From: Clytia hemisphaerica
Lineage: Eukaryota; Cnidaria; Hydrozoa; Leptothecata; Clytiidae
Direction of reading: 5' to 3'
Assembly: GCA_902728285.1 (NCBI GenBank)
Contig: CACVBU010000840.1
Location: 346,504-410,503, forward strand
Length of the DNA stretch: 64,000 nucleotides
Position numbers and translations under genes: made by a program. Of this stretch, positions 904-59,641 are shown piece after piece. The first letter of the stretch is position 1, and every line of letters starts with the position of its first letter. Under the pieces are notes generated by a model. It searched no databases, was not told where the DNA came from, and saw nothing but the letters and a program-made list of their open reading frames with translations.

Positions 904-3900
904 AACATCGATGTCGAATTTGAAGCCTTTCCACCGGAAGAAAATGATTTCCATGGCTTGAAACAACTCTTACTTCGTGTAAGAATATGATTACATTTTA
1001 AATTTGAAAACTAATCCTCAATTTTACTTCCAGTATGATCAATATGTATCGGGGGGGGGGGTGTTTTCTTAATTTAATGCCTCATAACATTATTTGACTA
1101 ATCCATCGAAAGATTTTCTTTACCCAACCCCACCTAGGTGGAGAAGACTTCGAGAAGGTGTCCTAGTCTAGAATTTGTCACTTTAGTATAACATTTAAAT
1201 GACCCGAGAGTTTACAATGTCTTGACTGCAAAGTGTCGAATAAGAATTGGAATGAATTGTCTGCGTTTTTATTGGAGCTGTGGAATGTTTTTGCAGAATA
1301 AGCAAATAGACTCATGAATAGATAGGCTTTAAGCGTGTTTTCTTCCACCAATTTTTCTAACTCGGAGTCTGTATCTTAAATCTTTAATATTGTTCTTTTA
1401 ATATCTTCTCACTTCTTCTTCTTCTTGTTCTTTACAGCCGTTTGTTACATTACACGTCGATGTATCCGATATGTCAGACTTGATCATTTCACAAAAAGAT
1501 ATGGGAAGCACAATCAAAGTGAGTACTATAAGTCTTTTTTTTTGTAAAAGTTTTCTTTTATAAAAAAAACTATACAGGAAAATAAGGCTTCAATGGTCTA
1601 AATAAAGACTCTAAAACAACCAATGTTTTAGAACATTGCACAAAAATATTTAGAAGATGATGCGGAATTGAGAACATATTAAAAACGTTAAGAATGGAGG
1701 CTTCAAAGGTTTTGGATGTTCTTATAAAAAACGTATATTTTCAGAAGTCTCTAATAAATTCATAGTTTAAGTGAAAATACTTTCTAAATAATCAAATAAA
1801 GAATTGTAATATAAAGCCAAGTCAACTAAATTCACACATTTGAGATCAATATTGATGTCCCTGTGTAAAACTATTCATCAACGATTTCTTTTAAATTTCT
1901 CTCGATCTGGAACTTGCAAAAGTGAATAGCGCGTTACACGTTTTTTTCATAAGAACAAATTATATAAGAACACAAGGCTTCGATTGCGAAAATGCTAAGA
2001 ACAAGTTAAGAACATTTTAAGGCTTTGCGGACTCGAAAACACCCGATTCTTTAGGAAAATGGTGAAAATAAGAACATGTTAAGAATATTTTTAGGCTTAA
2101 AATCCAAAAAGTTGAGAGCATCCGAAGGCTTTTGGATGTTCTTATAAAAAAAGGTGTATTCTAAGGTCAATGTTTTCCTAATATGATGCAAAATAAACAG
2201 GCTTTGTCTAATTGTGTATAGGCTACACGCATCCCCTTTGAGATGTTTTGTTATAGGGGATGCGTATCATGTATAAAATTCCCTTGCAAGAGTTACCTCT
2301 TTGTGTTTTTTAGAAACTTGATTCGTAAGTTTTATTTTAGGAATCGTTATATTTCTAAAAATTTGAATGGATGTAGGTTAAATACAATCATTAGATTCCT
2401 AAATCTTTTTTAAGAAAATCGAATCAGGTTACCTCAAATTTTGTGTAAACTCTCGGACGGGAATTTCATACACGATACGCATCACCTACATAAATTTCGT
2501 CTAAAACTCATACAAGTGTTTGGATTTTCAAATTCAATTTCATATGTTCAATAAAAAATCTCGCATGCTTTTCATTCTCTGTATCATCAAAGTTTAACAT
2601 AACGACACGATGGAACGGACATTCAACTTTTACGCATGCGCAATAGACAAATTCCAAGAACCGCGAACATTGCTTTCGATCAGTGTTTATAACTAAACCT
2701 TTCTGTACCTCATCGACCATACATTTTGGCATTTTAAGCTCAAGATTCAGTTGATTTAGCATAAATGGAATTTTACCATCACGTGTTGCGTAGAACCAGC
2801 TGACATCGGGAGCAGTTATTAAAGTTGCAGTGGAAAAAGGGCACTCAATTTCAGGTTTTGTTGTATTGGCAATTTGTATAAACCCTCTGCACTCTGGTAC
2901 AGAACAATCAATAATCAATGAATCTGTACCCATCATACATTTGGGTATCCTCAACTTGAAGGTTTGGTTCGCGAAATTAAGGATTGATTTTAAATTTCCG
3001 TATTCATAGTCACTGACAATGTCCATTGCAGAATAGAGACACTCGACTTTAATTTTTTTTGATTCGTAAAGGAGATTAATGAACTCTCTACATACTGTGT
3101 TCTCAATGTCAATTAGCAGTGTATCGGTACCAAGCATACAGGGCGGCATAAGTAGTGTCAGATCTAAATGGTCTATCATGAATGCGATCTCCTTCAGAAA
3201 GCCTTGTATGTCGCTATAAATTTTTACAGTGGAATGCGGACATTTCATTTTGATTTTAGATTCGTAAAGGATATGAATGAACTTTACGCATTCAGGTCTA
3301 TCAGTGTTAATGATCATATAGTTAGTTCCCAGCATGCTGTTCGGGATGATCGGCATGACGTTCAGGTGTGATAAGAGCAATGCAGCCTTCCCATAACTCA
3401 ACTTGGTATCGTCGCGGAATTCAATCGATTCGAATGGACATTCGACTTGGATTCTCGATTCGCATACGATTTTAACAAACGCTCTACATTCTGGGTTTTT
3501 CATGTCAATAATGATCAATGATTCAGATTCGATCATACTCAATGGGATGTTTAATTTGAAATGTAAACGTGAGAAAAGAAACTCAACTTCGTGACCATTC
3601 AATTCAAGGTCATTGCGAAACCGAACTGTTGAGTATGGGCTTTCCAAGGTCACTTTCGATTCGCGAAGGATCTTGATAAACTGTCTGCATTCTGGCCTCT
3701 CCATATTAATGATAAGAGAATCGGAACCAATCAAAAATGTGGGTGTTTTTAATTTTAGATTTAAATGTTTAATAAAAAAGATTGCATTTCTTAAGTCGAC
3801 AGTGTAAAGGATACAATTGGCCACTTTAGCCATAGAATATGGGCAGTCAAGCTTAAGTTTAGCCTCGTGGAAAAGTGTGAGAAATTCTTGACATTCTGGC

Positions 3901-6900
3901 ATGAAAGGGTCGATGACCAGATAGTCGGAATCAGTATTCAGCATACAATTGGGTATCTCGAGAGAATTGTTAAGAATGTAATTTTCAAATTTCCAATTTC
4001 TGTAAGGCTGTAAGATGATGCGTGTGAAGATTTTCGACTTACTCGCGTGTAGATGTGTAAGCCGCATGAAGAAGTCGTTAAAAAAGTCGTTCTCCTTTTT
4101 GAGTCGATGTATTCCGAAGATGACAGGAGCACAAGCCGTCAACTCGCGATTGGTCATGTAAGGTGTTATTCCTCTGGTGACGCATAGAAACAGACCGGTC
4201 ATAAACTCTTGTAAAGCTAGATGCTTGTATTGGTAGACAGCCTGCTTTGTCTCGCCACGTTCGTATTTAACAATCAATCCGGACTGTTCAAGATGAATAG
4301 GACAGTTTAACTTTCGTATATCTTTTTCAGTAAACAAGACTATGTTTTTCATATAGGTCTTCACTGAAAGTGTCATCAAGGAATACACACATTCCATGAA
4401 GTTAACATCGTCCAACATTTCAGCTAAAGTTCTATACGTTTTAGAGCTTACGCCTTGCAAATGCTTTCTCAGAAAAACAAGACAGGCATACATGTAGAGT
4501 TCTGTACACGTGTTCAACGGCTTTGTTATTAGATCTTCGCCATAAACATTACATATGACCCATGTAAAAACAGGAACGGTTGCCATGACTTTGAGATTGT
4601 TCGAATAACAAATAGCGTCCTTCACTCTTTTGACTTTCGCAACGTCCCCGTTAAAGAAACGTTCGATGTATTTTTCGACATCTTCGTCCTTAAAACCGCA
4701 AACTTCTACCGTTTTAATTTTAATGACTTTCATTTCCAATTCTTTAAGCTCGATAAATTTTCTCTTCAAAAAGTCACAAGCTTTGGGTCGTCCTGAAGCA
4801 ATACTTTTATGACCCTTCAGGACATGACCTTTCGGATTGATTAAATCAAAAACAAGTTTAAAGGGGGTACACGTCGACCTTTTGTGTGTCTTTTTAGAAC
4901 ATTCGTAAACACCTTGTAGCTCATCGAGGCCGTCGATTATAATCAATATTCTATCAGCAATCGGTTCCAAATCTGTTAATGTCAATCTTTTAAAAATGTT
5001 CGGATACTTGAATCTAAAGAGCTCTTCTACTGATTCTATATCCTTATACACCAAGTTGATTTCCCGGCAAGAGAAGAAAAACACAAATTCCACAGGAAAA
5101 TCAATGTTGAGCTCTCGCTTTGCCAATTTGTGAGTGTACATCTCTAACATGGTTGTTTTCCCCATACCACCCACAGCGCGAACGAAAACAACTTCATCGT
5201 CACTCTGAAAGAGATCCTTCATTACGATGCTCTCTTTCTGAAGTAATCGTTGCTCCATTAGCGCTTCGCGATCAGAATTATTAGTTTCTCTATCGACTTC
5301 AGTAGCTTTGAGTACTGCCAAATCGGTATATAGATTCTCATTGTATTGGTAATGGACTTGACTCCGATCTCCAATTAACGGCTCGTTCACAAGGGAGCTG
5401 ATTATGTCTTCAGCACATTGGCTGCGAAGTTTTGATGAAGCAATTAGGATATCTAAGAGGGAAAGAACAGAGAAAATTTGATAAAAATAAAGACATTTAT
5501 CATGGCCTTTTATGATATCGTTAATGAACTTTATAATGCGTTGATTAACATCTTAATTACCCTCGTGTCATTTACCAAAGTATGCTTTAGAAACAAATTC
5601 CTCGAAAGTATTATAATTGAGGTTTTCAATATACCTTGAATACAATAACGAGTGACAACGAAGCGACTGCAACAATTAGAAATAACCCTAAGGTTTGACC
5701 CGTAAAAGCGAGGGAGGTAGGTAATAAATGCTCATTTACCGTCGTCCTCAGTCAATCAGGATCTAGACAAATCAGATGCTAAGCGTCCCCATCGCAGAAA
5801 TACATACATACCATAAGGGAACTAATTTTCGCGCGAACTAATTTTTGCTTTTTCGTGGTTTTCAGCGAATTACAAATTTGGCCATTTTTCATCAAAAAAC
5901 CTGAAAAAGTTTTAGGAAAATAAAAGATTAATTAATTCCTGCGAAATGTGATTTTTTGAGGTTTTATTTGTGATTACGATAATTAGTTCTCTTAAGATAA
6001 ATCGCTAATAAAGAGTGAATGACGGTGATACCTGAAGTGATAAGGGTCCTTTTGGTGATATGCTTCACTATGTCCACTCTTCCCAATCTTTCCAACTCGT
6101 ATGATAACCTTGGCCATGTGACATTGTTGATGACTTCTTCCAAGTTCTCTAGTGTCTTGGATTTTGTAATATTTAGGCTTGACAGTAGAAGCTGTTTATC
6201 TTCTTCACCTATCTCTTCAATGACGTAGTCAAGAACTTCTTGTAAACAACAAGATCCCATCTCTATAAAGTATATAAATAGTCGGTTTGATTAGTATATA
6301 AGAATATTTATAATGAAATTGACCACAAAATGAAGAACATGCTAAGAATATCACCGTCATATAATTTGGCAATTTAACCTAAGAATGCCACTGTTCGAAC
6401 ATTTTTAACTGTAACTTGTCAAGTAATCCCCAGTAAGGCTCAAACGTTTTGAATATTGCAATTTTTTTTTCTACAGGTATGTATTCCATTTTAAATTTTG
6501 GTTGAACTGATCCTAATCTAAGAATATTTTAAGAATAATTTAGGATGATTTTCCCCAAAAAGTTAAGAATATCCATGATGAAATGAAAAAAAACAACTCT
6601 TATAAAAAAGTGTTTATTAGGAAAGGCTTAGGACTAGGCTGACTCCCGCTCAGTGAATTCGGTTGAAAGTTAAGTTAAGTCACCTGGAATACCACAGAAT
6701 AGAGACAGACTAGTGCGACAGTTGTGAGTACTCCTAGAGGATCTATTCTTGGAAATCTTGGCTTTTACTTTGCCGATCATGGACTCTTTTTCTCCCGTCG
6801 CTTACCCAACCCAACCCCAACGCGGCCATGTTTCCATACTAAAGAAATATGAAATATCGCAAATATCTCGATGTTCTCGACCAATCAAAACGCTGATATT

Positions 6901-9900
6901 TTTTTGCATTTAATTATAGAAATAAAATGAACATATTCTTACCCTGTTTTTGATTCAGTGTGGTCTTTATAAACTCATGTTTATCCATTAACTGTCCAAC
7001 AACTTGATCAAATTTCAAAATGGCTTCACTATGACTGGCTAAGGTATTATTATGTCCAGAAATAGCATTCTCGTGTTTATTGAGTTTGGTCTCGTGGCTT
7101 GAAAGAGAAGTATCGTGACAAGCGAGGGCGGTGCCATGATCTGTAAGGGCGGTGTCGTGAGAAGCGAGTTTGCTGTCGTGCTTTGAAATGGTGGTTTTGT
7201 AAAAGACTAGGGTGGTATTATGATTGCCAAGGGTGGTTTCGTGAGAAGCGAGGGCGGTGTTGTGACTTGTAATGTTGGTTTTGTAAAAGGCGAGGGCGGT
7301 ATCATGATTGCCAAGGGTGGTTTCGTGAGAAGCAAGGATGGTGTCGTGACTTGTGAGGGCGGCTTGGTGAATAGCGAGGGCTGCATTTATATCGTCACAG
7401 GTGGTTTTTTGATTAGCAAGGGCGGCGTCATGATAAGAAAGAGCAGTGGCATGAGAAGCGAGGGTGGTATCATGATTTGTGAGTGTGTTTTGATGATTAG
7501 CAAGGGTGGAATCGTGATCAGCAAGGACGGTGTCATGTTTTAGTAAATCGGTTTTTAATTTTGGAACATCTCTCATTAATTGATTAGAGTCTGCTTGAAG
7601 GGTTGCGAGATCGTTAAGAATCTTTTTGGAGAAGAACGCAAGCGCCTGAACAACAGCATTATTGGTAACGTCCAGTGGCCTACTTTTCAAAGCGTTGAAA
7701 TTATAATTAACCTGACAAAGACCTTTTACAATTCTCTCACCCTCAGCCCATTGTAAATTAAAGTCATTCAAATTGATAGTTTTAGCATCGGCGTGTAAGA
7801 GACGATTTCTCCATTTTTGGGCAAGAATAACAAAGGCAGCGATACTAAAATCATTTTGAGATGGATTTTTTTTCCAACCATTTTTAGGAGGTGGAAGTGT
7901 GGTGAAGTCGATGATTAACACAATGATAAGAGTGATATCAAAAGCTTGGCTGTCAGTTTGTGAGTTTTTAGGTAATAGAAGGCAAACTTGTTCCTTTTTG
8001 AGTACATTTTTCTTTACTAGTTGGTTTATAGTGTTTTGTTGTTTTCGTAGTTCAGCATTAAGTGCTGTTGGGTTTCTCGGTAGACCGACATAGTTTTTGT
8101 TTTTATAATCGTTATGTAAGATAGCAAGTAGGGCTTCTTTTAACGGCTCGTGAAGCAGTGTCGCCAAATGAAGCCAGTTTTCAATTTCTTGTATGGTTTG
8201 CGCCACTGTCACAAACGATGACATCTTTACACATCTTTATAATGGCCTCAAATCATATATCAGGAAATTGTAACATTGTGTTTTTGCTGAAGCTAAAAAA
8301 AGAGAGCATTATATGGGTGAAAGTCGTGTAAAATAAGTGGTTGGGTTGTATTGTTCACTCTTGTAGTGTATGTATCTTAATGCAATTATACCTTAACACC
8401 CTAACGTTACACAAGGGGGTTAGCGAGGGCCTCGCCAAAAACCAAATAACGGGATAGAATACAAATATTCTTGATGTTCATGATGTAATCTTTACAAAAT
8501 AACCAATAGACGTGGCTGTAGATGTAGAAATTACGCTTTTTTTAAAAGAACAATTTTATAAGAACAATGATGCTCAAAATCTCCAGATAATAAGAACAAT
8601 TTAAGAACAATGCTGAGCCTGAAATTTCTCAATTTGAAGCCATATTAAGGTTAAATTACTAAAAATTTGGTATAACGCCTAAAATACATCAATTACATAT
8701 AAGAACAGGATAAGAACAATTTGAGGCTCAAAGTGACAAAAAATATTACATCGTGAATATCAATAATTTTAGAACACGTGAGATATTTCAACTACAGATA
8801 TTTAAAAACAATAAAACCTACAGTTGGCTCTCACTATACTGGCAAAAAAAGAAAATATACAGAATCCCGAACAAAAGTCAGAATATCCAGGCTCTAAACT
8901 TTTTTCTTCCAAAAGCGATTTTCATTCAAATATCAGAAGACAGCGCATGCGTACTTTATCGATTCAAATACTTTGGGTCTGAATGCATTTAGTTAAACAA
9001 AGCTGTTAATAGAAGAAACATCAAAATACTTCACAGCTAGCACACATAATTCAGAGCTAGATATCCAGGCTACCCAAACAACCCCACACTATGAACAAGA
9101 ACACCACCATAGCATATAGACACCAACAAAATTATTCATACTGAGATCAGTGTAATCTTTAATTTTTCGAATGTGCAAGCTAAGCTATTAAAAACGTAGA
9201 GATATGCGAAAAGTCATTAATTATTTTATTACCAATTAACGAAGTTTTCATGTTTATGCAAGCAATCTTAATTGGGAAAGTTTTGCGGTTATTCCAGATT
9301 ATCAAAGAAACTTAATGACGCACTAGTAAAGATTTTGGCTTCTGAATGAGTTATTGGTAACCTGATAACAGATGGTTATGATTTTCCTACGCGAACGGTA
9401 AATCTCTGAAGGCGTTTGAAAGTTTAACCATCTGAGGTAGAAAGTCAGAACAAATATTGAACTGTAAATACAATGACGCAACTTTGTTGTCATTCCCAGT
9501 ACTTTGAAACGAGCACGGCCCTTACAAATTCGAGATAGCTTATTAGTCATATCGTTTGTTTTCACACATCCCTTTAGAGCTTTAGTGTGGTGTACAGAAA
9601 ACAATGACGATCTGATTTCAGGTTACTTAATGGATGTTGTGTTTAGAAGCTATACCTTTAAATTGCCGAAGAAAAATCGCCGTGTTCAATGTTTTGATTC
9701 TTTGGAACGGGATGACTTCTACTCTAGCCCCTTAAAACTAAATGTGTTTTCCCCCTTGAAATACGAGTTAAATCTTATTGGTTGACATGCACATCAAATG
9801 ATTTTTAGAAAGATCAACCACAATCAATCACTCTTGAATTTTTAACGCAAAGAAAAAGATGACAAAAAGGTTATCTGATATTCCGATGGCGGATTGGCGG

Positions 9901-12900
9901 CCGCCCACGCTAAAGCTCTAAAGGGAGCGGGCCAATTTCCCATCGGAGAGGAATGATAGACGGCCTTTGATGTGCCGCATCCTCAGTCGGGTTCAACAGT
10001 CCTTGCCCGTAAATCTAGAAATATTTCGGTTGGACCCGCCAATTCCCGAAAACGAGGGCTGGGTTACCAGACCTCCCGCTGCAAAATTCTTGACGCGGTC
10101 TCGCAAAATTCCGTAATGTAAACCTTCCAGATGTTAAAAACTTTCCCGACCTTCAGAGCTTTAGCGTGTCGGATGAAAATTTCACCATCTGGGTTCCAGA
10201 TAAACAAAAAGCTTACGCATCACAGAACTCATAGGACCTCAACCCCACTGGTATCGTCGAGATCCTCGATTAAAAATAATGTTCTTCAAATGTTCTTAAC
10301 TGGTTCCTGATATTCCGGCCATCAAAGCCTAAAACCCTTTGCGACTGAATAGGAAGAATGTCAACACAAACCAAGCCTTCACTCTTGTATCAAAGTATCC
10401 AATGGGCTTTTCTAGAAATAGTCCGTCCTCCTGTTGAGGATATCGGATATCCAGGGGGTTCCGTGCTATCGGTGCTATCTGGATATCCATTGTTAGGGCC
10501 TTATCAGAGGGAGAAGATATCCACGGGGTACAAGACAAAATCCCTTGATATCCAGCGGGTACAGGACAAAGTGCTATGGGGTATGGGACAATATGCATGG
10601 ATATCCTCGACCCTTATTTTCACTTTATCCAAGGGGTGATTTCATTTCAAGTCAGATAACCAGGGGAGTGTGGAACTCGAAAAAATTAATATCCTCAACA
10701 GGGGGGGGGGGTACAGCAAATTTCTGGAAAAGCCCAATTCTCCTCGTGTGGCAAAAGTTGACCTGGGCGAATGTACGATTCGCCAAGCTAACCGTTCTTA
10801 CCAGAGTGGTAACTAAACCTTTTCTTTTTCTCCACTCGAGAGCCATGGACGGTGATCATTATACACCCCCAAAATTGGCAAAAATATCGTCCCTAGTGGA
10901 GAATTATACTACAATTTTTGTCTCCACTAAAAATAATCAGATAAGCAAATCGTCACTCCAAAAAAATGTGCTATTTTTTCCATCCCCACTGAATCTCCAG
11001 CCATAAAAAACAGGAATATCAATCCTTATCGAGTTTTGGTCTGTTATTTTTACCCCCATTGGCTGATAAAATCCCACCTGGTCTGTGAGAAGGGGTGTAA
11101 AATGTACCCAAAATAACCAAACAAGTATTTTAAGAATTAAAATCTTATGATTGTAAGGGATATGAAACTTTTTGTTTTATTGTAGATAGTTGATGATGAA
11201 GAGGATAACGTATATGGAATTGTTACAATACTTCATATGGACCGCTATAAGGTATAAAATTCATTCGAGAGATTTGTGCTTTTTCAGACACTGGACAGTA
11301 GCTCGAAGTATTGCTCATGTTTTTTAGAACGTGCTACAGTTGACGCTCTCTAACTCGATGTTCTATATATTTATTTTAAATTTTTTGAAATTAAAAAAAG
11401 TACATAACTTCCAGTTTCTTTTGTTACGGCAATCATCAGACGTACAAATAAAACATTTAAAAAAAACTTTGAGTAAGTACAGATTCAGAAGAGTAGAACT
11501 TAATTAAAATTAACCTGCAAAAACGGGTGTTTCCGTAGAAAATATTACGTAACGAATATCGTGATTTCAAAGTACCTGTGACTACTGTACTGTATCTGTT
11601 ATTAGGAGAGACCTTGTATCAAAGAACTGAATAAGGAACTACTCGGCAAATGTAAATGCAAAGAAACCACAAGCAAAATGGAACTCATTTTCAACAATAA
11701 GAGAGTGGGATATTTCATCAACGAAAGATTCATCAACCTCCCTGATCAACTTGCACCACCTTTTCATAACTCAATAAAGTAAGTTTTATGCAATAAACCC
11801 ATCAATTCTTGCACATACCCCTGACTCACAGCCCCGATGAAACTTTTTTCCACAGTGGATAGAAACTTCTATTGAAATACCGGAAATAATAGGCATAGAA
11901 ATTATTTTGTTCCAAGCTTAAAAAATCCAGTGGGGATGGTTTTTGAGTGCAATTTTTAAACATGGAATTTTGAATATGAAATCAAAGTCAATTTCCCAGT
12001 GGGGCTGAAATTCTAGGGTATTTTTCCTACCGGGACGAAATTTTTGCCAAATGTGACACAGGGGCGTTTGCACGAGTTCATGGTATGCAACACACCGCTA
12101 TAACTACTACGCGAAATCATGTAACTTTTTGTTTTTATCACAGATATCATAATATTTTACACACTAGATAGGCTAACTGTCCACAGATCTCCCGTTGAAT
12201 GGAAGTGCGTCTAGTTTTGTAGTCGACACTAGTCTACCATGTTGTTTTCAAAATTTACCTTAGATTTTCGAACGTTGAATTTCAAAACATTCGAATCGGG
12301 AGGTTTACGACCAGAATAGAAAAGAAGGCAGACTAGCCACCTCTAAAGCTGGACACGCTTGCTTTTACACGGGAAGCCCGTTCCAGTTAAGATCAGTGGT
12401 TTTAGTCTACCAAATACGTCACTTGCAACCAATCATGTGTAGTAAAAGTGACGTAATGTTAGAGATATTTCAGGGCTGCATATCCTGCATATTCATGTAT
12501 ATCCTGGACGCTACGAGAGGATTGGGCTCCTATTTACAAGGGTTGCGTGAATGTCATAAAAGTCTTATAGGCTGTGAGCGCGTTTATGCAATACAGTCAT
12601 TGGTCGTAAATTCACTGGCAAATTCCATCTCCGTCGCTTGATAGATTTGGTCGTTGTAAAACGAATTCCAATTCCCTTTCGTAGGCCCTTTCATGATGGA
12701 AAAGAATCGTGGGTAATCAGGACCACCACGCTCTTGTAGCGAATCTCTGTTGGTCTGAAATCTTTGGATATCTTCGCGCCAGACCCATCGGAGGCCATTA
12801 TGGAGACATAATCAGTCCTGATTACCCTTGATTCATTTCGATCGCGGTATGGCCTATTTAGCTTTCGATGTTTGATAGTTTTATAGGTGTTTATTTATTT

Positions 12901-14892
12901 TTCTTTCTGGAACGGGAATGATAATATTCTATGTATGATATAAGCACCTAAAATAATAATTTGTTCTCTTAAAATTTTTTAGGAGTGAATTTGACCAAGC
13001 TATAAAACAGGTATATCACAATATTCATTACTAGCAAATGCAAATGCTAAATAGTAGAAAATAAGCAAACAAATAATTGAGTGGGCAAATTGTAGTTTAC
13101 ACAAACACCGATATTATCATGTAACAATTATCGTACTATCATATAACAGCCATATAATTATAAAAGATTCCAGTCTAGAGATTATGCAAGAAATACAGTA
13201 TTATAAATACTTTCTTTAATGCTAGTAATATCATACACCTGCCTAATAATGGGGTTTGAGTTTGCAAGTATTAAAATTGAATGACGTTTTAGGTCTAAGT
13301 TTTTGGAATTTCCATGGAACCTGATTAAATTTTCCAAGGAGTCATCCACCTTCACTTTAAGCTATGTATGGAGAATGATTTTTATAAGTTTCCTTTTTAC
13401 AAATTTTACCCATTTTGGGGATATCCACATTATCTCGAGAACTTCTTTTTAATTTTTTTTTTCTATCCCCCTTTATGGATATTGAATGGAACAGCACAAT
13501 GCTATTTCTATTGCGCTTGAACTAATTGGTCTCTTATCTCTCTCCATTAGGACAAAACAAACGACATTGATTATTTATTGTTTGTGTCAAAAACAATGCG
13601 TCCTACCAAAGCTGTTCCCATGAAAGAAGGTATGCTGATTTCTTTGAATACGTTTCCCACTTTTAGGACATTAGGGAGTCAAGGCACTTGACCTTATTAA
13701 GACGCAAACCTTCTTTCGAGAAAAATTAGATATTCAAGGGAACCTTTTAGAGAAAATTTATTTTCAGTTTTATTCGACGCCAACATTTTGATCTTATTTT
13801 GATTGGCCAAATTTATTAGGCATTTGGAGGGTTGGTTTCCACCACAACATTTTGAAAACCCTATTTTAAAGGTACATCCACACAGCAAGAAACAGAGAAA
13901 GGTAAAAAGAAGAAAACAAAACACGTCAATGAAATGAGGGAAGAAAACGAAGTGGATTATACAAATTTTGAAGAAGAAATCTATTTCAAGGTATATTCCT
14001 TTATAGTTATACTTTCTTCGATTCGAATCTTTCTGTATTTCTAATTAACCCAGCAAGTGCCACTGGCATCATATGAGATTACTCAAATTTTGTTTGGTCA
14101 TTTATCCGTAGATCTTGACCTAGAAGCGCCGCGGACTTTGGGGATGAGCTGGAATTTTTACAAGATACTTCACTAATTGGTCATTTGAAGTGATAGAGAT
14201 GACGCGTTCTTTAGAAAAAGTAACAAAATTGTTTTATTACTGGTAACGACCAACCAAATCAAATAAGAGCTTGTAAAAACTCCAGCTTGTCCCGAACTTT
14301 GCTGCCCTTTTTTGACCCTGACCGAATAAAAAATGAGATTGGTATTTTTTTTCTTAGTTAGGACGTGTACGCGCATTTGAAATCAATCAAAAAAATAAAT
14401 TGAAAATTCGAAGTAGTAATTGAGTGATTTCGTTAAATGGGTTAAAACGATGGTTACCTCAAAGGAATTTCTGTCATTTGAAAGTAAAGTGCTTATTAAA
14501 AACAGGGCCTGCTTTACAAGCCCTTTCGTTCTAATATTCTTATAAATAGAGCAGGGTTGTGCATTTCTAAAGACAAATCTCCGAATTTTTTTTTGAGATT
14601 TCATCTAAGCCTATGAACATCATAAGAATAATCTCAGTTGCAGACTTTATAAATCATTAAGAAATACCGTTTGTCTATCAATTTCTGTAAACTAGCTAAA
14701 AAAATTCGCATTCTTTGAACTTTGTTTTTCTAGGCTTCAGAATTGAGTTTCAGTTACTGTGTGACGCAAGCCACAGGATTTGCACATGCTGGTGGGTGGG
14801 ACTTTGTAGACCAACCTATGAATACTTATAGAACAGTATTCTTAGTCCCTAAACACAAATGGAAAGATATCCTGAAAGAAATATCTGGATGA
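904..14892 (+). CDS. BCCIP: BCCIP homologue (BRCA2 and CDKN1A-interacting protein), 3' eight exons
   Basis: Eight exons join in phase: 904-978, 1438-1518, 11186-11251, 11606-11778, 12983-13010, 13551-13629, 13872-13990 and 14734-14892, ending in TGA. Together they encode 259 residues. Recognisable BCCIP features, in order, are VEFEAF near the start, the segment ending MGSTIK, the acidic VDDEEDNVYG segment, VGYFINERFINLP, LLFVSKT, a lysine-rich linker, and the C-terminal block with FAHAGGWDF and TVFLVPKHKWKDIL. Human BCCIP has about 314 residues, so only the acidic N-terminal exon with the start codon is missing; no candidate for it was seen in 1-900 and it probably lies left of the window. 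The family is nuclear, binds BRCA2 and p21, and its yeast relative Bcp1 is a ribosomal-protein (uL14/RPL23) chaperone. The gap 1519-11185 contains a whole gene on the other strand. All introns are GT-AG. No canonical AATAAA was seen close after the stop. Confidence 0.93.
1519..2330. repeat. Intronic AAGAAC-type MITE copies (1556-1738 and 1935-2158)
   Basis: This part of the BCCIP intron contains two related short elements rich in AAGAACAT and AAGGCTT words. The second, 1935-2158, begins TACACGTTTTTTTCATAAGAAC and ends with the inverse TGTTCTTATAAAAAAAGGTGTA, so it has terminal inverted repeats of about 20 bases around a 220-base body. The first copy is more decayed and keeps only the right end. 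No coding potential was seen. Confidence 0.65.
2508..8224 (-). CDS. NLR-like protein: HEPN, His-rich coiled coil, death effector domain, NACHT, novel C-terminal repeats
   Basis: Three minus-strand exons, 8224-6943, 6262-6032 and 5452-2508, join exactly in phase to give 1485 residues. Residues about 35-170 match the DZIP3-like HEPN domain, with the Rx4H signature R139-N-R-L-L-H144. Residues 227-405 are some 25 heptads of the type HDTALAS. Residues 433-500 form a death effector-like helical bundle ending LERLGRVDIVKHI. Residues about 590-930 are a NACHT ATPase: Walker A GGMGKTT (599-605), Walker B LIIIDGLDE (674-682), a sensor-like SGRP, and the NLR-type YKHLALQEFMTGLFL. From about 1001 to the end are seven repeats of about 68 residues, not recognisable as leucine-rich. 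Known NLRs act as cytosolic danger sensors; HEPN domains are often RNases and DEDs recruit caspase-type partners, so an innate-immune role is inferred. The gene lies antisense within a BCCIP intron. A possible AATAAA for its 3' end reads on the minus strand near 2332-2337. The joining of exons rests on phase and splice sites, not on transcripts. Confidence 0.82.
2511..3965 (-). repeat. Seven coding repeats of about 68 residues at the C-terminus of the NLR-like protein
   Basis: The unit can be summarised as L-K-L-x-x-P-x-x-M-(L/I)-G-(T/S)-D-S-L-I-I, then PECRxF(I)xIxxESK, then xECPxST, then a variable 20-25 residue part ending in hxxLN. Anchors seen repeatedly are the dipeptide PEC (NPEC, RPEC, MPEC, VPEC), the ECP(F/Y/H) cysteine-proline step and GTDSLIID. 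The cysteines are spaced at about 24 residues within a unit and about 68 between units. The repeats take the position that leucine-rich repeats occupy in standard NLRs. I do not recognise the family. Confidence 0.8.
5817..5997. repeat. TTTTCGCG-type palindromic MITE
   Basis: A short element in an intron of the NLR-like gene with inverted ends: AGGGAACTAATTTTCGCG on the left and AATTAGTTCTCTTAAG on the right. The body carries inverted TTCGCG and GCGAAAT words. It resembles the larger elements at 36474-36703 and 57699-58050. Confidence 0.55.
6310..6615. repeat. Dispersed repeat, copy 1 of a 300-base AAGAAT family
   Basis: Copy 2 is at 57355-57675. Shared, collinear words include GCTAAGAATATCACC near one end, CCCCAGTAAGGCTCA in the middle, ATCCTAATCTAAGAAT, and AAGTTAAGAATATCCATGAT near the other. 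Both copies end near a TATAAAAAA-like stretch, as in the AAGAAC MITEs, so they are probably a subfamily of these. This copy sits in the intron between the coiled-coil and DED exons of the NLR-like gene. Confidence 0.6.
7010..7546 (-). repeat. 21-base minisatellite coding for histidine-rich heptads
   Basis: Within the first exon of the NLR-like gene, a 21-base unit recurs about 25 times in the coding frame, giving heptads of the form H-D-T-x-L-A-x (variants HETTLGN, HDTALTD, FYKTTIS). The regular leucine and histidine spacing predicts a long parallel coiled coil. Several blocks are near-identical, for example ASHETTLGNH occurs twice, which points to growth by unequal exchange or slippage. The reading frame is preserved throughout. 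Confidence 0.85.
8225..9869. other. BCCIP intron, upstream flank of the nested gene; no coding exon seen
   Basis: This stretch lies upstream of the start codon of the NLR-like gene and should contain its promoter, but no clear core promoter motif could be assigned. A decayed AAGAAC-type repeat lies at about 8531-8745. Short open frames on both strands between 8750 and 9785 lack splice-site support, family similarity and codon regularity, so no gene is called. Confidence 0.5.
9870..10203. mobile_element. hAT-like non-autonomous element, short copy
   Basis: The 334-base element starts GTTATCTGATATTCC and ends GGTTCCAGATAA. Its two ends are inverted over about 54 bases, including CACGCTAAAGCTCT on the left against AGAGCTTTAGCGTG on the right. 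It is flanked by the 8-base direct repeat ACAAAAAG at 9862-9869 and 10204-10211, which fits a hAT-type target duplication. A longer relative with its own 8-base duplication lies at 45613-46943. No transposase remains. Confidence 0.82.
10426..10712. repeat. Short inverted-repeat element with GATATCC subrepeats
   Basis: The left end CCTGTTGAGGATATC and the right end ATATCCTCAACAGGGG are inverted copies. The interior carries several GATATCCA/GGGGGT units in tandem. The right end runs into a ten-base G tract. It lies in the long BCCIP intron. The short open frames inside it are not genes. Confidence 0.65.
10855..11100. repeat. Dispersed repeat (ATACACCCC/GGGGTGTAA ends), copy
   Basis: It begins ATACACCCCCAAAATTGG and ends GTGAGAAGGGGTGTAA, so the tips are inverted. 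The interior words AATTATACT, AATCAGATAAGCAAATC and CCCCACTGAAT recur at 31260-31460 and 56384-56650. It belongs to, or is related to, the family at 11813-12066. Confidence 0.65.
11813..12066. repeat. CACAGCCCCG-type MITE, copy
   Basis: This copy lies in a BCCIP intron after exon 11606-11778. It starts with CTCACAGCCCCGATGAAAC and ends TGTGACACAGGGGCG. The copy at 40327-40590 matches it along its length (AAAAAATCCAGTGGGGATGG, AAATCAAAGTCAAT, GGGACGAAATTTTTGCC). A shorter copy is at 34721-34932 and a decayed one at 61228-61510. Confidence 0.7.
12682..12857. repeat. TAGGCC-ended MITE, copy 1
   Basis: An inverted-repeat element with tips GTAGGCCCTTTCATGATG and GCGGTATGGCCTA. Interior words GGGTAATCA and TCCTGATTACCC are inverted relative to each other and also occur in copy 2 at 18172-18345. 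Confidence 0.6.
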
Positions 14893-49384: not shown

Positions 49385-52102
49385 TTATTCGTTTGATGTA
49401 AAATGGGTTTTTTCAACGTTGTTCATGATATTGGATGTACAATTCCCCCATATGATAATACCATACAAGACGGAAGGTAGGATGCCTTGGTTGTATATGG
49501 TTTCCAATGTTTCAGGTGAGAGGGAGCGCATACGATGCAGTTTCTTCAGTTTTGAATAAAACCTTTTACAGACGGAATCAACATGGGTACTCCAGGTGAG
49601 ATCATCATCTATAATTAAACCGAGGCATTTTGTTTGGTTTGTAATTTCGATCATGGTGCCACTTAACGATACCGATGGAAGGGGACCACTCATTCTGATT
49701 CTACTCCATGATGAGAATCTTGCATTTATCAGGGTGTATTGTGAGTGAGTTTTTGGTGGCGTAGCAGTGAAAGTTCTGTATTTCTCTTTGAAGTGATAGG
49801 ATGACATTGTCGACAGAATCTCCAATTTCAAAAAGTGTCGAATCATCAGCAAGTAGCTCAAGTTGACTATTGGTTGAGCTTGGCATATCTTCAACATTAA
49901 TTGTGAAGGCAACAGGTCCAATAATCGAGCCTTGAGGTACTCCATATTCGACTGGACACGTTGTTGAGCTTTTACCATTAATTACTGTGAATTGGGATCG
50001 CTCGGATCGCACAGAAAGATAATTGTGAATAAAATTGTAAATGTCACCACATAAACCAGAAGCTTTGAATTTCTGGTGTAAAACATCATGTGAAATACTG
50101 TCAAACGCTTTCTTTAGATCGATAAAGAGCACACCAACGACTTTGTTTTGGTCAATAGCCTTTCGCCATGTTTCTGTAAGGTGTAGCAGGAGGTCCTCAG
50201 AGGATCGCTTTTCCCACTGGTGGTCGTTTTGTAAATTATGTATATTCTTTTATCTGTGAGCCGCAAACATAATGTTCGATAACTTTGTTTGTAGAAGGCT
50301 CAATAGAGAAATTGGTCTATAATTGGAACAATCCTTTTTGGATCCTTTGTTCTTGTACACGCTGCACACCCTGGCAGTTTTCCATTCGGTTGGGTATTTG
50401 CAGTTTTCAATGCATTTTCGTAGAACTTGGAAGAGATTAATAGAAGATGCGCTCTCATTGATTTTAAAATCTTTGGCTGATATCAAATCAGCTCCGGCTG
50501 CTTTGCCAACTTTGATAGCTTTTTGAACGATTTAGTGAATAGTTCAAAGTCTACGTTGACGTCTACAGTGGAAGTGTTCAATCAATTGACGATCCCAGTC
50601 ATCAAGAGCAAGAGCTCTTTTCCAACATTTGCAAAGAACGAGTTCATTATGTTGGATTTTTCGTCATCTTTACTATGTAATTTATTGTTAGTATCAATCA
50701 ATGGGCCAATAAGTGAATTTTTAGAGTCACCGATAAAACTTTTCACTGTTTTCCAAAAAGTTTTTGAAGAGTCAACGTTCTCAAACTTAGCCTTCCAGAA
50801 TTGCCATTTGACTGATTTGATTTTTTTGGAGCACTTGTTTCTTGATTTCTTATAAGCTCTCCATTCAGGAGAGCCTTTTGGGATAGCCTTTGCTTTTTGG
50901 AAAAGGTTATATCGTGCATTTAGTTGTTTTCGTAGAGCACCGTTCATCCATGGTTGAGATGTTGATTGGATTTTGACTTTTCGCGTTTTTATATGGTGGT
51001 ATAGGGTATCTTTGAAAATAGAGGTCCAACACCAGAGGTAATCATCAGGGTCGTCAAAGATTGATGCTAAGTCCCATATGGAGCAGAATCAAGATCTTGC
51101 TTGAGGGATTGAATATTTGCGTTTTTATAGTCTCTTATTGTCTTGAGCTTGGTTTGTGATTTCTTCACAAATATATTGAACGTTGAGTAGACAAGATTGT
51201 GATCAGAATCGTAGCTACCAGAGTTGATAACTTTCTTTGGTGCAGATGTTATTGCAAGGTCGATTATTGTTTTTGATCTCTCGGTGATACGTGTGTATTC
51301 CTTTATCAAGTTCGTAAGGTTAAATCTCGAGAGCATTCGCAGGAAGTCAAAATTCTGATTAGTGTCTTTTTTATGATCAAGGTCGTAGTTGAAGTCACCA
51401 AGTAATAAGATTGGCGCGATGGGAGAATCTGTCAAGGATTGGCTCAATAAGCTTCAAGAACTGTTTTTGCTTTGGTGGTCGATATATACAGGCAATCAGC
51501 ATTCTTTGTGATCGCATCGTTAGCTCTGCCCAAATAGATTCAGTCTTTTTCATGTTTTTGTCTTGTTCAAATTCAATACACTAGAAAATCTACAAAATAA
51601 GTAGATGTATAAATTTTCTTAATTCTACGGACGTCTGTAGAATTACGACACTCTTTAATATCGACATATAATGTAGAATATAGAATTCAACTAATTTTGT
51701 AGATATTCTAGAACGATTTCACTTTGTGCGTGCTCGAGACTCGAGCTCCAAACCCCTGACCCAAGCTGACGAGTTAGGCTAACTGTCTAGATCGTTATTT
51801 ATCCGGAATTACTAATTTGCCGCAATTCTACAGATGTCTGTAGAAATACAAAATCTACATATTTTGTAGAATAATAATTCTACCCGTAAATCTACAGACA
51901 TCTTTAGAAATTTTAAATTTACACCATCTACGTATTCTGTAGAATTATGCGTGATGCTGTCACTAAGATGGGTTTCAGTGACAGCTAGAATGTCCAAACC
52001 GGTAGCTCTGATGAGAACTCTTACGTCCTCAATTTTATCAACCAAACCATTAATGTTGATGTGTGCACATCTCAATCCTTTGGTGCCAATCTTTATTTTC
52101 AA
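49385..52102 (-). pseudogene. Broken LINE ORF2 (AP endonuclease plus reverse transcriptase)
   Basis: Fragments in different frames at 52102-51812, 51447-51067, 50947-50582, 50486-50250, 50132-49701 and 49978-49385 make up one former polyprotein. Catalytic landmarks are visible: GDFN and SDH of the endonuclease, the AFD and (L)ADD aspartates of the reverse transcriptase palm. The catalytic box reads LADD where YADD or FADD is usual. Internal frameshifts and an insertion make this copy inactive. Confidence 0.85.
51582..51945 (-). mobile_element. SINE-like insertion in the LINE endonuclease region
   Basis: The insert interrupts the LINE between the TETHLSDSITH block and the later endonuclease core. 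It is full of TCTGTAGAA/TTCTACAGA words in both orientations at its two ends. The centre, read on the minus strand, contains GTTAGCCTAACTCGTCAG followed by GGAGCTCGAGTCTCGAGC, which resembles a degenerate tRNA A-box/B-box pair. The borders are approximate. Confidence 0.45.
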
Positions 52103-52556: not shown

Positions 52557-52774
52557 AAAAAAAATTTGCTTCGGGGAGACTTCATGTAGTACTTTGTCCA
52601 TCTCTGTCTAATTTTACATGTTATTACATATCTGTCCAACTGTACATTTTTCTTAATACCGTTCTGATTTCCGTCCTTCTTTTGATTCTTTTATCGTTTT
52701 GATTCTTTTTGTATATGTTACATCTCTGTCCAACACAAGTTTTCCCTATTCATTATCTAGTTATCCTTTGATAT

Positions 52775-55700
52775 CCTATCCTTCTTTTGATCCTTGATCC
52801 TTTTCTTCTTTTGATCCTTGATCCTTTTCTTCTTTTGATCCTTGATCCTTTTCTTCTTTTGATCCTTGACCCTATTCTTCTTTTGATCCTCGATCCTATT
52901 CTTCATTTGATCCTTGATCCTTTTCTTCTTTTGATCCTTGATCCTTTTCTTCTTTTGATCCTTGATCCTATTTTCTTTTTGATCTCGACCTTTTCTCTTT
53001 TGATCCTTATCCTATTCTTCATTTGATCCTTGATCCTTTTCTTCTTTTGATCCTTGATCCTTTTCTTCTTTTGATCCTTGATCCTTTTCTTCTTTTGATC
53101 CTTGATCCTATTCTTCATTTGATCCTCGATCCTTTTCTTCTTTTGATCCTTGATCCTTTTCTTCTTTTGATCCTTGATCTTTTCTTTTTTGATCCTATTC
53201 TTCATTTGATCCTCGATCCTTTTCTTCTTTTGATCCTTGATCCTTTTCTTCTTTTGATCCTTGATCCTTTTCTTCATTTGATCCTTGATCCTATTCTTCA
53301 TTTGATCCTTGATCCTTTTCTTCTTTTGATCCTTGATCCTTTTCTTCTTTTGATCCTTGATCCTTTTCTTCATTTGATCCTTGATCCTATTCTTCATTGA
53401 TCCTCGATCCTTTCTTCTTTGATCCTTGATCCTTTTCTTCTTTTGATCCTTGATCCTTTTCTTTTGATCCTCTTTTGATCCTTGATCCTTTTCTTCTTTT
53501 GATCCTGATCCTTTTTCTTTTGATCCTTGATCCTATTCTTCATTTGATCCTCGATCCTTTTCTTCTTTTGATCCTTGATCCTTTTCTTCTTTTGATCCTT
53601 GATCCTTTTCTTCATTTGATCCTTGATCCTATTCTTCATTTGATCCTTGATCCTTTTCTTTCTTTGATCCTTGATCCTTTTTCTTTTTTGATCCTTGATC
53701 CTTTTCTTCATTTGATCCTTGATCCTTTTCTTCATTTGATCCTTGATCCTTTTCTTCTTTTGATCCTTGATCCTTTTCTTCTTTTGATCCTTGATCCTTT
53801 TCTTCTTTTGATCCTTGATCCTTTTCTTCTTTTGATCCTTGATCCTTTTCTTCATTTGATCCTTGATCCTTTTCTTCATTTGATCCTTGATCCTTTTCTT
53901 CATTTGATCCTTGATCCTTTTCTTCTTTTGATCCTTGATCCTTTTCTTCATTTGATCCTTGATCCTTTTCTTCATTTGATCCTTGATCCTTTCTTTCTTT
54001 TCTTTGATCCTTTTTCTTCTTTTGATCCTTGATCCTTTTCTTCTTTTGATCCTTGATCCTTTTCTTCTTTTGATCCTTGATCCTTTTCTTCTTTTGATCC
54101 TTGATCCTTTTCTTCATTTGATCCTTGATCCTTTTCTTCATTTGATCCTTGATCCTTTTCTTCTTTGATCTTGATCCTTTTCTTCTTGATTGATCCTTTC
54201 TTTTGATCCTTGATCCTTTCTTCATTTGTCCTTGATTCCTTTTTATTCATTTGATCCTTTGATCCTTGATCCTGATCCTTTTCTTTCCTTTTGATCCTTG
54301 ATCCTTTTCTTCTTTTTGATCCTTGATCCTTTTCTTCATTTTGATCCTTGATCCTTTTTCTTCATTTGATCCTTGATCCTTTTTCTTCTTTTGATCCTTG
54401 ATCCATTCTTCTTTTGATCCTTGATCCTATTCTTCATTGGATCCTTGACCCTATTCTTTCTTTGATCCTTGATCCTCTTCTTCTTTTGATCCTTGATCCT
54501 ATTCTCCTTTTGATCCTTGGTCCTATTCTTCTTTTTGATCCTCGATCCTATTCTTCATTTGATCCTTGATCCTTTTCTTCTTTTGATCCTTGATCCTTTT
54601 CTTCTTTTGATCCTTGATCCTATTCTTCATTTGATCCTCGATCCTTTTCTTCTTTTGATCCTTGATCCTTTTCTTCTTTTGATCCTTGATCCTTTCTATC
54701 CTTGATCCTTGATCTTGATTATTCTTTGATCCTTGATCCTTTTTCTTCTTTTGATCCTTGATCCTTTTCTTCTTTTGATCCTTGATCCTTTTCTTCTTTT
54801 GATCCTTGATCCTTTTCTTCATTTGATCCTTGATCCTTTTCTTCTTTTGATCCTTGATCCTTTTCTTCATTTGATCCTTGATCCTTTTCTTCATTTGATC
54901 CTTGATCCTTTTCTTCTTTTGATCCTTGATCCTTTTCTTCTTTTGATCCTTGATCCTTTTCTTCTTTTGATCCTTGATCCTTTTCTTCTTTTGATCCTTG
55001 ATCCTTTTCTTCATTTGATCCTTGATCCTTTTCTTCTTTTGATCCTTGATCCTTGATCCCATTCTTCTTTTGATCCTTGATCCTATTCTTTCATTGGATC
55101 CTTGACCCTATTCTTTCTTTGATTCCTTGATCCTCTTCTTCTTTTGATCCTTGATCCTATTCTCCTTTTGATCCTTGGTCCTATTCTTCTTTTTGATCCT
55201 CGATCCTATTCTTCATTTGATCCTTGATCCTTTTCTTCTTTTGATCCTTGATCCTTTTCTTCTTTTGATCCTTGATCCTATTCTTCATTTGATCCTCGAT
55301 CCTTTTCTTCTTTTGATCCTTGATCCTTTTCTTCTTTTGATCCTTGATCCTATTCTTCATTTGATCCTTGATCCTTTTCTTCTTTTGATCCTTGATCCTT
55401 TTCTTCTTTTGATCCTTGATCCTTTTCTTCATTTGATCCTTGATCCTTTTCTTCTTTTGATCCTTGATCCCATTCTTCTTTTGATCCTTGATCCTATTCT
55501 TCATTGGATCCTTGACCCTATTCTTTCTTTGATCCTTGATCCTCTTCTTCTTTTGATCCTTGATCCTATTCTCCTTTTGATCCTTGGTCCTATTCTTCTT
55601 TTTGATCCTCGATCCTATTCTTCATTTGATCCTCGATCCTTTTCTTCTTTTGATCCTTGATCCTTTTCTTCTTTTGATCCTTGATCCTTTTCTTCATTTG

Positions 55701-56376
55701 ATCCTTGATCCTTTTCTTCATTTGATCCTTGATCCTTTTCTTCTTTTGATCCTTGATCCTTTTCTTCTTTTGATCCTTGATCCTTTTCTTCATTTGATCC
55801 TTGATCCTATTCTTCATTTGATCCTCGATCCTTTTCTTCTTTTGATCCTTGATCCTTTTCTTCTTTTGATCCTTGATCCTTTTCTTCTTTTGATCCTTGA
55901 TCCTTTTCTTCTTTTGATCCTTGATCCTTTTCTTCATTTGATCCTTGATCCTTTTCTTCATTTGATCCTTGATCCTTTTCTTCATTTGATCCTTGATCCT
56001 TTTCTTCTTTTGATCCTTGATCCTTTTCTTCATTTGATCCTTGATCCTTTTCTTCATTTGATCCTTGATCCTTTTCTTCTTTTGATCCTTGATCCTTTTC
56101 TTCTTTTGATCCTTGATCCTTTTCTTCTTTTGATCCTTGATCCTTTTCTTCTTTTGATCCTTGATCCTTTTCTTCATTTGATCCTTGATCCTTTTCTTCT
56201 TTTGATCCTTGATCCCATTCTTCTTTTGATCCTTGATCCTATTCTTCATTGGATCCTTGACCCTATTCTTTCTTTGATCCTTGATCCTCTTCTTCTTTTG
56301 ATCCTTGATCCTATTCTCCTTTTGATCCTTGGTCCTATTCTTCTTTTTGATCCTTGATCCTTTTCTTCTTTTGATC
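52775..56376 (+). repeat. GATCCTT satellite, 24-base unit, about 150 copies
   Basis: The basic unit is a doubled 12-mer: GATCCTTGATCC followed by TTTTCTTCTTTT or TTTTCTTCATTT. It runs for about 3.6 kb with few interruptions. Because 24 is a multiple of three, most frames stay open and show eight-residue periodic peptides (LILDPFLL on plus, KKKRIKDQ on minus); these are by-products, not genes. A marker block with TTCATTGGATCCTTGACC, then ATTCTCCTTTTGATCC and CTTGGTCC, recurs with ATTCTCC at 54501, 55159, 55568 and 56313, showing higher-order amplification. The plus strand is strongly pyrimidine-biased. Confidence 0.97.
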
Positions 56377-56383
56377 CCAGCCA

Positions 56384-58171: not shown

Positions 58172-59638
58172 TCATTCCCTTTGACTCATAATAAATTCAT
58201 GATTCTGATTATAATAACTTCGATTAAAACGCCGATATCGATTTATCGAATCAAAGTCGAAAATATCCATGACAGTCATATTATCGAGGTCATATTTCCC
58301 CGATTGCCCGATAACATTAAATCCATCCCGAATCGGAATACAGGCAACAGCAGCTGAACGAGCCACGGTCGATATCGTATTCGAATGTGTCGAACTTCTA
58401 GATTTCGATAGGTCTGTCAAAGCGCTTGCAAGACTCTTCCGTCTTTTAGCTTTAAGCCAATATCCACGCCAAAAGTATACAATTGGGTTGCAAATTGAAT
58501 TACAGACCAGAAAACATAAACTGATCGTATGGATAGTGCTAGAAACATTATATACAATCGGTAAACAGGCGGATGGTAAAGTACAGACCAGAAATGAAAC
58601 GGTGACTATACAAGCAGTTAAGAGAGCGACAGTCTCGACTTTACTGCGTCTGTTGTTTTTGCTTTTATTCTGTTTATGTCGACTGGTGCTTCTACGGAAA
58701 GAGCGAAGAAAGCTGGCTTGCATAGCTAACCGACGAGTGATAATTAGGTAGATCAAAGCAACAATAAAGCACGATATGAATATGGTATAACTGATCAACA
58801 ATTCACTTTTATGGTGAAGGGAATCGTCATTCATTACATAGGCAAGCCCTCTATGATATTTATATACCGATATAGATGCAACGAAAGCAAGAGTTAATAA
58901 CCAGATTGAGAATACGGCACGTTTCATTTTGACGGCGTCCGTTCGTACGCGATGACGTAACGGGAACAGAACTGCAATTAAACGGTCTATAGAGATTCCT
59001 ACAACGTGCAATATGGATGCAATGATTGAAAAGCTTGTTAACATGTAGAGACATTCGTTCACCATCCGTCCCGTTGGCCCGTCATTATGATACGTCAACG
59101 TTAGTGTTAACGTAAGTACAACTAAAAGACTGAACAAAAAATCTGCCACCGCTAAACTAATCATCAGTAATTCTGACGGGAAATATTTCTTTCGTTTTTT
59201 CATTAAATGCATTTCAGCCATGTTGAGTAGCATCGCGATGACGGCTAAAATGATTTGAGGTAGAATGTGATGGTAGTCTTGTGACCCGTCATAATCGATA
59301 TCTGATGGTCCAAGCAAATCCTCGTGACATAGATCTTTCTCATACAGATCGTAACACATTTCTCCCGTAGTATTGGTAAAATTCAGGAAATTGTTGATTG
59401 TAGAATTATTCAGTTTATTGATGAAATCATTCAAACCTTGCTCTAAAGAATGGTTCATATTTAATGGCAAGTCATGAAAATCGCTGCCATTAAAATTTCC
59501 TGTAAGATAATCAGTCTCGTTAGAATCTGCCGATACACCAGTGTAATTTACAAAGTGTAGATCCTCAAGACCAGTCTCCAATTGTTCAAATTCGTATTCA
59601 AAATAGCGTTGGCATTTCAAACAATCATCCACCAACAT
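58172..59638 (-). CDS. Orphan class A (rhodopsin-like) G protein-coupled receptor
   Basis: One uninterrupted frame of 488 residues; an in-frame stop shortly upstream supports the ATG at 59638. Seven hydrophobic segments lie at about 125-146, 155-180, 196-220, 241-258, 279-300, 336-360 and 368-389. Class A landmarks are SLAVADF in helix 2 (D166), C196 at the start of helix 3, DRL (218-220) in place of DRY, CTLP in helix 6 where CWxP is usual, and NPIVY (384-388) in helix 7. The 125-residue N-terminus has no signal peptide and carries eight or more N-glycosylation sequons (for example NYT, NET, NGS, NHS, NNST, NFT, NTT). Loop 3 is very basic (RRSTSRHKQNKSKNNRRSK). The tail has Ser/Thr clusters. 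The ligand cannot be told from sequence. Lack of introns is common in invertebrate class A receptor expansions. Confidence 0.92.
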   Translation of the reverse strand: MLVDDCLKCQRYFEYEFEQLETGLEDLHFVNYTGVSADSNETDYLTGNFNGSDFHDLPLNMNHSLEQGLNDFINKLNNSTINNFLNFTNTTGEMCYDLYEKDLCHEDLLGPSDIDYDGSQDYHHILPQIILAVIAMLLNMAEMHLMKKRKKYFPSELLMISLAVADFLFSLLVVLTLTLTLTYHNDGPTGRMVNECLYMLTSFSIIASILHVVGISIDRLIAVLFPLRHRVRTDAVKMKRAVFSIWLLTLAFVASISVYKYHRGLAYVMNDDSLHHKSELLISYTIFISCFIVALIYLIITRRLAMQASFLRSFRRSTSRHKQNKSKNNRRSKVETVALLTACIVTVSFLVCTLPSACLPIVYNVSSTIHTISLCFLVCNSICNPIVYFWRGYWLKAKRRKSLASALTDLSKSRSSTHSNTISTVARSAAVACIPIRDGFNVIGQSGKYDLDNMTVMDIFDFDSINRYRRFNRSYYNQNHEFIMSQRE

Positions 59639-59641
59639 CAC

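Follow-up and report, generated by a model that had tools for sequence, protein, structure and literature searches.

The minus strand of a 64,000-nucleotide (nt) stretch of the Clytia hemisphaerica genome (contig CACVBU010000840.1, positions 346,504 to 410,503; here called the window) very probably carries a single gene, at window positions 2508 to 8224, for a NOD-like receptor (NLR) of about 1,485 amino acids (aa) in which a DZIP3-type HEPN domain, as the predicted effector, is followed by a coiled coil, a death-fold-like cassette, a NACHT ATPase, and C-terminal repeats. On the genomic evidence, an N-terminal effector or adaptor resides in the same protein as NACHT. The single-gene reading had been put forward in a preliminary description of the sequence, and paralogs in the same genome support it strongly: HEPN lies upstream of NACHT at 33 of 45 listed places, the exon-1 donor is in phase 1 at 13 of 13 loci, and the cassette is a phase 1-1 exon. 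At the exon level, HEPN-NACHT is thereby shown to be the commonest NLR arrangement found in the present genome (33 of the 45 listed NACHT matches), and Pfam misses both the conserved third module and the C-terminal repeats of these genes.

Exon structure of the probable HEPN-NACHT gene

Three open exons on the minus strand (8224-6943, 6262-6032, and 5452-2508) join in frame into 1,485 residues and a stop codon, and the phases match at both junctions as previously described. Exon 1 (6943..8224) encodes the HEPN domain and the coiled coil and ends with a phase-1 donor; exon 2 (6032..6262), a cassette 231 nt long in phase 1-1, encodes the conserved, putatively death-fold-like module of about 72 aa; and exon 3 (2508..5452) encodes the NACHT ATPase with an NLR-type region, then the C-terminal repeats and the stop codon. 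They are separated by intron 1 (6263..6942, 680 nt) and intron 2 (5453..6031, 579 nt). Scored with matrices not derived from the present data, the four splice sites predicted to be used rank in the top 0.7%, 3.5%, 9.2%, and 0.3% of the 6,041 GT and 6,911 AG sites on both strands, with the 0.3% belonging to the exon-3 acceptor. An exact CAGGTAAG donor search for exon 1 was unproductive; the real donor is AGG|GTAAGA.

The two splice joins exceed what chance predicts, as in-frame joining at such scores is rare. At the score level of the exon 1-exon 2 join, 1 of 104 real open reading frame (ORF) pairs was joinable, namely, that pair itself, versus 2 of 999 random pairs; at the level of the exon 2-exon 3 join, the figures were 2 of 104 (that pair and one other) versus 6 of 957, with real ORFs of at least 70 aa and random ORFs of at least 60 aa. 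The three exons are real and most likely constitute one gene of 1,485 codons. Copies of an interspersed TAAGAACA-rich repeat flank the gene (1995-2110 and 8587-8741) and also occur within it (6328-6351).

A recurrent arrangement in the genome

The searched genome comprises 417 Mb, with the window on contig C577, and it yielded at least 45 NACHT, at least 115 HEPN_DZIP3, and at least 32 middle-exon matches (E ≤ 1), the last including the window's own exon and comprising 30 that reach an E value of 0.001. HEPN_DZIP3 was located upstream of NACHT, on the same strand and within 20 kb, at 33 of the 45 listed NACHT matches versus 0.12 expected by chance, and at none of the 45 was it found within 20 kb downstream or on the other strand; the paralogs are related by descent, and these counts are not independent trials. 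Among the 45 listed matches, 27 have the order HEPN-middle exon-NACHT, 6 have HEPN and NACHT, 2 have the middle exon and NACHT, and 10 have neither partner (25, 8, 2, and 10 when an E value of 0.001 is required of the middle exon). These neighborhood counts used all 115 HEPN and 45 NACHT matches, and a selection of 37 of the 115 HEPN matches made by eye gave the same 27. Three of the six HEPN-plus-NACHT places (two on contig C49 and one on C674) proved by tblastn to have a diverged middle exon. When 20 NACHT loci were fetched and searched with tblastn, 13 had all parts in order, 2 had no HEPN in the stretch, 1 had no middle exon, and 4 had NACHT only.

The exon boundaries are conserved as well. 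Near the end of the exon-1 frame, the best donor has phase 1 at all 13 loci tested, namely, the window and 12 of the 14 where HEPN was matched (L019, clipped by an edge, and L020 were excluded). Phase 1-1 holds for the middle exon in 15 loci inspected by eye and in all 17 exons of a further set, in which phase-1 sites were sought in a short interval and from which one match with an in-frame stop and a partial match on contig C517 were left out. In none of these 32 paralog middle exons (15 + 17) is ATG the first full codon.

The preliminary description had regarded the domain order as unusual. That claim is rejected, given that 27 of the 45 listed NACHT matches share the order of the window; it is the commonest NLR architecture found in the present genome, and an effector or adaptor followed by NACHT and C-terminal repeats is the normal NLR order.

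Several further loci were observed. The contig of the window also carries, at a distance of about 270 kb, a close paralog with the same parts (L012, G000:C577:619600-629500). At G000:C793:971334-1074500 and G000:C913:27560-92097, nine and eight HEPN_DZIP3 matches are clustered, those of each cluster sharing one strand, and neither contig has a NACHT match; HEPN_DZIP3 is also present in open frames of about 850 to 970 aa with an architecture unlike that of the window (G000:C797, C932, C38, C8, and others).

HEPN, coiled coil, and NACHT

A check of the three domains named earlier (HEPN, death effector domain [DED], and NACHT) with hidden Markov models succeeded for two of them, with HEPN_DZIP3 and NACHT above their gathering cut-offs and no Pfam DED match for exon 2. 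The HEPN match (HEPN_DZIP3, PF18738) has an E value of 1.8e-21 and 76.9 bits against a cut-off of 27 and extends over profile positions 1-139 of 144. Residues 139-144 read RNRLLH, an intact Rx4H motif as had been reported, which conforms to the catalytic Rx4-6H pattern, and RNxxxH is kept in all 14 paralog HEPN ORFs read. A phospholipase C match across the HEPN region (E about 0.01) was taken as chance.

The coiled coil is encoded by a 21-nt tandem repeat and comprises 27 consecutive heptads, in which position a is always L, I, C, or V (27 of 27) and position d is His in 21 of 27; the His-heptad coil is thus confirmed, although with 27 heptads rather than the 25 counted before.

The NACHT match has an E value of 1.8e-15 and 57.6 bits against a cut-off of 26.7. 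It aligns at E 4.7e-12, including Walker A and Walker B, with a solved NLR (5irm/5irn), which we take to be rabbit NOD2; the entry is titled "Uncharacterized protein." Both Walker motifs had been called intact, which holds for Walker B, whereas Walker A (window 5140-5200, minus strand) is not fully canonical: it reads AVGGMGKTT, with Ala at the position of the first P-loop Gly. Among 20 paralog NACHT ORFs read, 19 have Gly at that place; the motif was not found in the other one, L009, whose ORF is incomplete. An NCBIfam scan gave matches below cut-off, mostly to coiled coils, and nothing useful came from a PADLOC scan, from viral and prokaryotic contig scans, or from Rfam and tRNA scans.

The middle cassette

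Exon 2 represents a conserved family of about 72 aa in which a Cys, a Trp, and two Thr are invariant in the 23 sequences aligned (alignment A5, 23 of the 33 exons read, with near-duplicates and three C49/C674 members with an insertion left out). Judged from its sequence, the module is death-fold-like, with DED as the best guess. The earlier assignment of a death effector-like domain survives in this death-fold-like look, whereas a Pfam DED match was lacking and the family profiles fell below significance. Searched alone, the window's exon 2 had a viral FLIP DED as its best match (E 0.07, not significant); against Pfam it gave no DED match at E ≤ 10, a search in which HMMER filters discard most matches above about 0.1. 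Members of the family gave no Pfam DED match at E ≤ 1 (16 members in one set and 23 in another), one of the 16, which is not among the 23, matched Pfam Death at E 0.014, and PDB profile searches with the family returned nothing significant.

We also made profile comparisons with human domains of the death-fold classes. DED was the best class in one run, yet 6 of 500 shuffles scored higher; a second run gave DED at E 0.017, pyrin domain (PYD) at 0.083, and death domain (DD) at 0.087; and a third placed DD first (E 0.019) and DED at 0.078. The known death-fold classes themselves barely recovered one another in the second of these runs (E 0.037 to 0.3).

C-terminal repeats

The tail of the protein (2511..4010, minus strand) is a run of seven repeat units, each about 67 aa long and divisible into two related halves of about 33 aa. 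The resemblance between the halves exceeded that in all 300 shuffles and all 300 rotations. Such paired halves would suit an alpha/beta solenoid. The region had been described as repeats other than leucine-rich repeats (LRRs), and it was found to be so: no Pfam family was matched at E ≤ 10, LRR included, so that the C-terminal LRRs counted among the hallmarks of an NLR are absent from these Pfam results, and PDB profiles gave no convincing match. A GTSF1-type zinc finger appeared at E 0.018 and was discarded when the value fell away to 0.49 with more units.

Among the 20 paralog NACHT ORFs read, 11 contain the first repeat unit at i-E ≤ 0.01, three of them matching over its first half only. 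Several units of the window type are present in L012 and L016, both of which also have His-rich heptads, and other paralogs have different coils and different tails; ten paralog NACHT ORFs scanned for LRRs had no match at E ≤ 0.01. The tail readings do not extend to L009, L013, and L014, in which the NACHT ORF stops short. From these patterns, the gene family looks like a conserved engine with a variable sensor and spacer.

Alternative readings of the locus

Several observations weigh against a single three-exon gene. The exon-2 donor ranks only in the top 9.2% of GTs, and an acceptor at 6685 within intron 1 outscores the used acceptor at 6264 (4.06 versus 2.94). Acceptor 6685 is in the top 1.8%, reading on from it leads to a stop after four codons, and an AATAAA follows at 6618, so a shorter HEPN-coiled-coil transcript is possible. 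In the genome, NACHT is missing from the 20 kb downstream of 81 of the 115 listed HEPN matches, and HEPN is missing from the 20 kb upstream of 12 of the 45 listed NACHT matches. Finally, Ala in place of the first Walker A Gly may alter ATP binding by the present copy. The same substitution could be the mark of a decaying pseudogene, which is very unlikely, as the three exons are open across 1,485 codons with usable splice sites, and both the HEPN motif and Walker B remain intact.

The intron-1 signals could also be read as the end of one gene, a HEPN-coiled-coil gene, with an adaptor-NACHT-repeat gene beginning at an ATG two bases inside exon 2 (6260, with GAG before and G after) under its own promoter or by spliced-leader trans-splicing; a Hydra operon with trans-spliced leader addition is on record (PMC3273482). 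However, AATAAA occurs at 1.2 per kb per strand in the window, and about 0.8 would be expected in the 680 nt of intron 1 anyway. Two genes are very unlikely because of the same-strand order of HEPN and NACHT among the paralogs, the phase-1 exon-1 donors, and the middle exons, all 32 of which are internal and phase 1-1 without ATG as their first full codon; an independent start at the exon-2 ATG is rejected in view of these exons. A serious if lesser possibility is that one gene produces isoforms, predicted as a full-length form, a HEPN-coiled coil-NACHT form that skips exon 2, and a short form that would stop within intron 1, after HEPN and the coiled coil, through the rival acceptor 6685. Because the cassette is phase 1-1, it can be skipped without loss of frame, and exons 1 and 3 together give 1,408 residues with the final stop only. 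Six of the 45 listed NACHT places have HEPN and a middle exon undetected in the genome-wide search, but the diverged middle exons found by tblastn account for three of these six.

Relation to described proteins and possible function

The single-gene receptor shares with NOD2 and other vertebrate NLRs a NACHT region alignable through the Walker motifs; those proteins have CARD or PYD where the window protein has HEPN and LRR where it has 67-aa repeats. Apart from LRR, HEPN_DZIP3 has been recorded as the domain most often paired with NACHT in nine named cnidarians, with 17 to 83 proteins in anthozoans (PMC8260672), and HEPN_DZIP3-NACHT is frequent in corals, with HEPN at the N terminus (PMC10236652). 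Like the window protein, these DZIP3/hRUL138-like proteins combine HEPN_DZIP3 and NACHT in one polypeptide; the middle cassette and the 67-aa repeats, neither of which matches Pfam, are not mentioned for them in the portions available of the two reports. In the pearl oyster, more than 50 NACHT proteins have an N-terminal HEPN, with Rx4H as the commonest motif (131 of 202), but the C-terminal modules named there are LRR, TPR, or WD40, and the expansion is a separate molluscan one (PMC9646362). HEPN and DED are joined in one immune polypeptide in the DED-TRADD-N proteins with HEPN RNases described in 2021 from cnidarians and Crassostrea (PMC8195603); these are built on TRADD-N, whereas the middle module of the window is only a candidate DED. 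A 2013 survey lists CARD, NACHT, DEATH, and LRR as fusion partners of DZIP3-type HEPN in various animals (PMC3710099, Table 1); the partners in any single protein are unspecified in that table, and the coiled coil and the exon-level account belong to the window gene. A literature search covering few subscription journals and no supplements returned no description of HEPN, coiled coil, middle cassette, and NACHT together. HEPN-DZIP3-NACHT proteins have, then, been described before from cnidarians (PMC8260672) and bivalves (PMC9646362); the gene model is good, the order ordinary, and the details new.

NACHT proteins oligomerize on activation. Most HEPN domains that bear Rx4-6H are RNases (PMC3710099). 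From these two properties we infer an NLR with RNA cleavage as its effector function, and the window protein is a likely RNase as predicted from its motif. In the mechanism that we propose, the C-terminal repeats would sense a cytosolic ligand or keep NACHT shut, nucleotide exchange at NACHT would lead to oligomerization with assistance from the coiled coil, and the clustered HEPN domains would then cleave RNA. As for the middle cassette, it may serve to recruit a death-fold partner, and such a partner is possible given that caspase-8-like cnidarian proteins with two DEDs are on record (PMC11251625). Caspase recruitment and signaling through a DED are a guess, unproven, as the module is not demonstrably a DED. 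Rather doubtful, in our estimation, is a broader proposal in which the commonest NLR of this animal would be a dual-output receptor, combining a HEPN RNase with a spliceable, lineage-specific death-fold cassette that would let one sensing event lead either to RNA cleavage only or to RNA cleavage together with death-protease recruitment, with a novel repeat solenoid as the sensor. If HEPN does cut RNA upon NACHT oligomerization, these genes would represent an animal NLR branch with an RNase effector, in a logic near that of bacterial HEPN-STAND proteins (PMC3710099) and RNase L.

Other features of the window

A BCCIP-like gene (Pfam BCCIP, E 2.3e-19), assembled by eye from several exons, lies at 11186-14890 on the plus strand. 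On the minus strand, a LINE-like element at 49704-51453 has reverse transcriptase and endonuclease matches in several frames. Positions 52773-56377 are occupied by a minisatellite with a 24-bp unit in about 150 copies, and 58175-59650 (minus strand) holds a Rhodopsin-family G protein-coupled receptor in a single open frame of 492 aa (7tm_1, E 5.2e-25).

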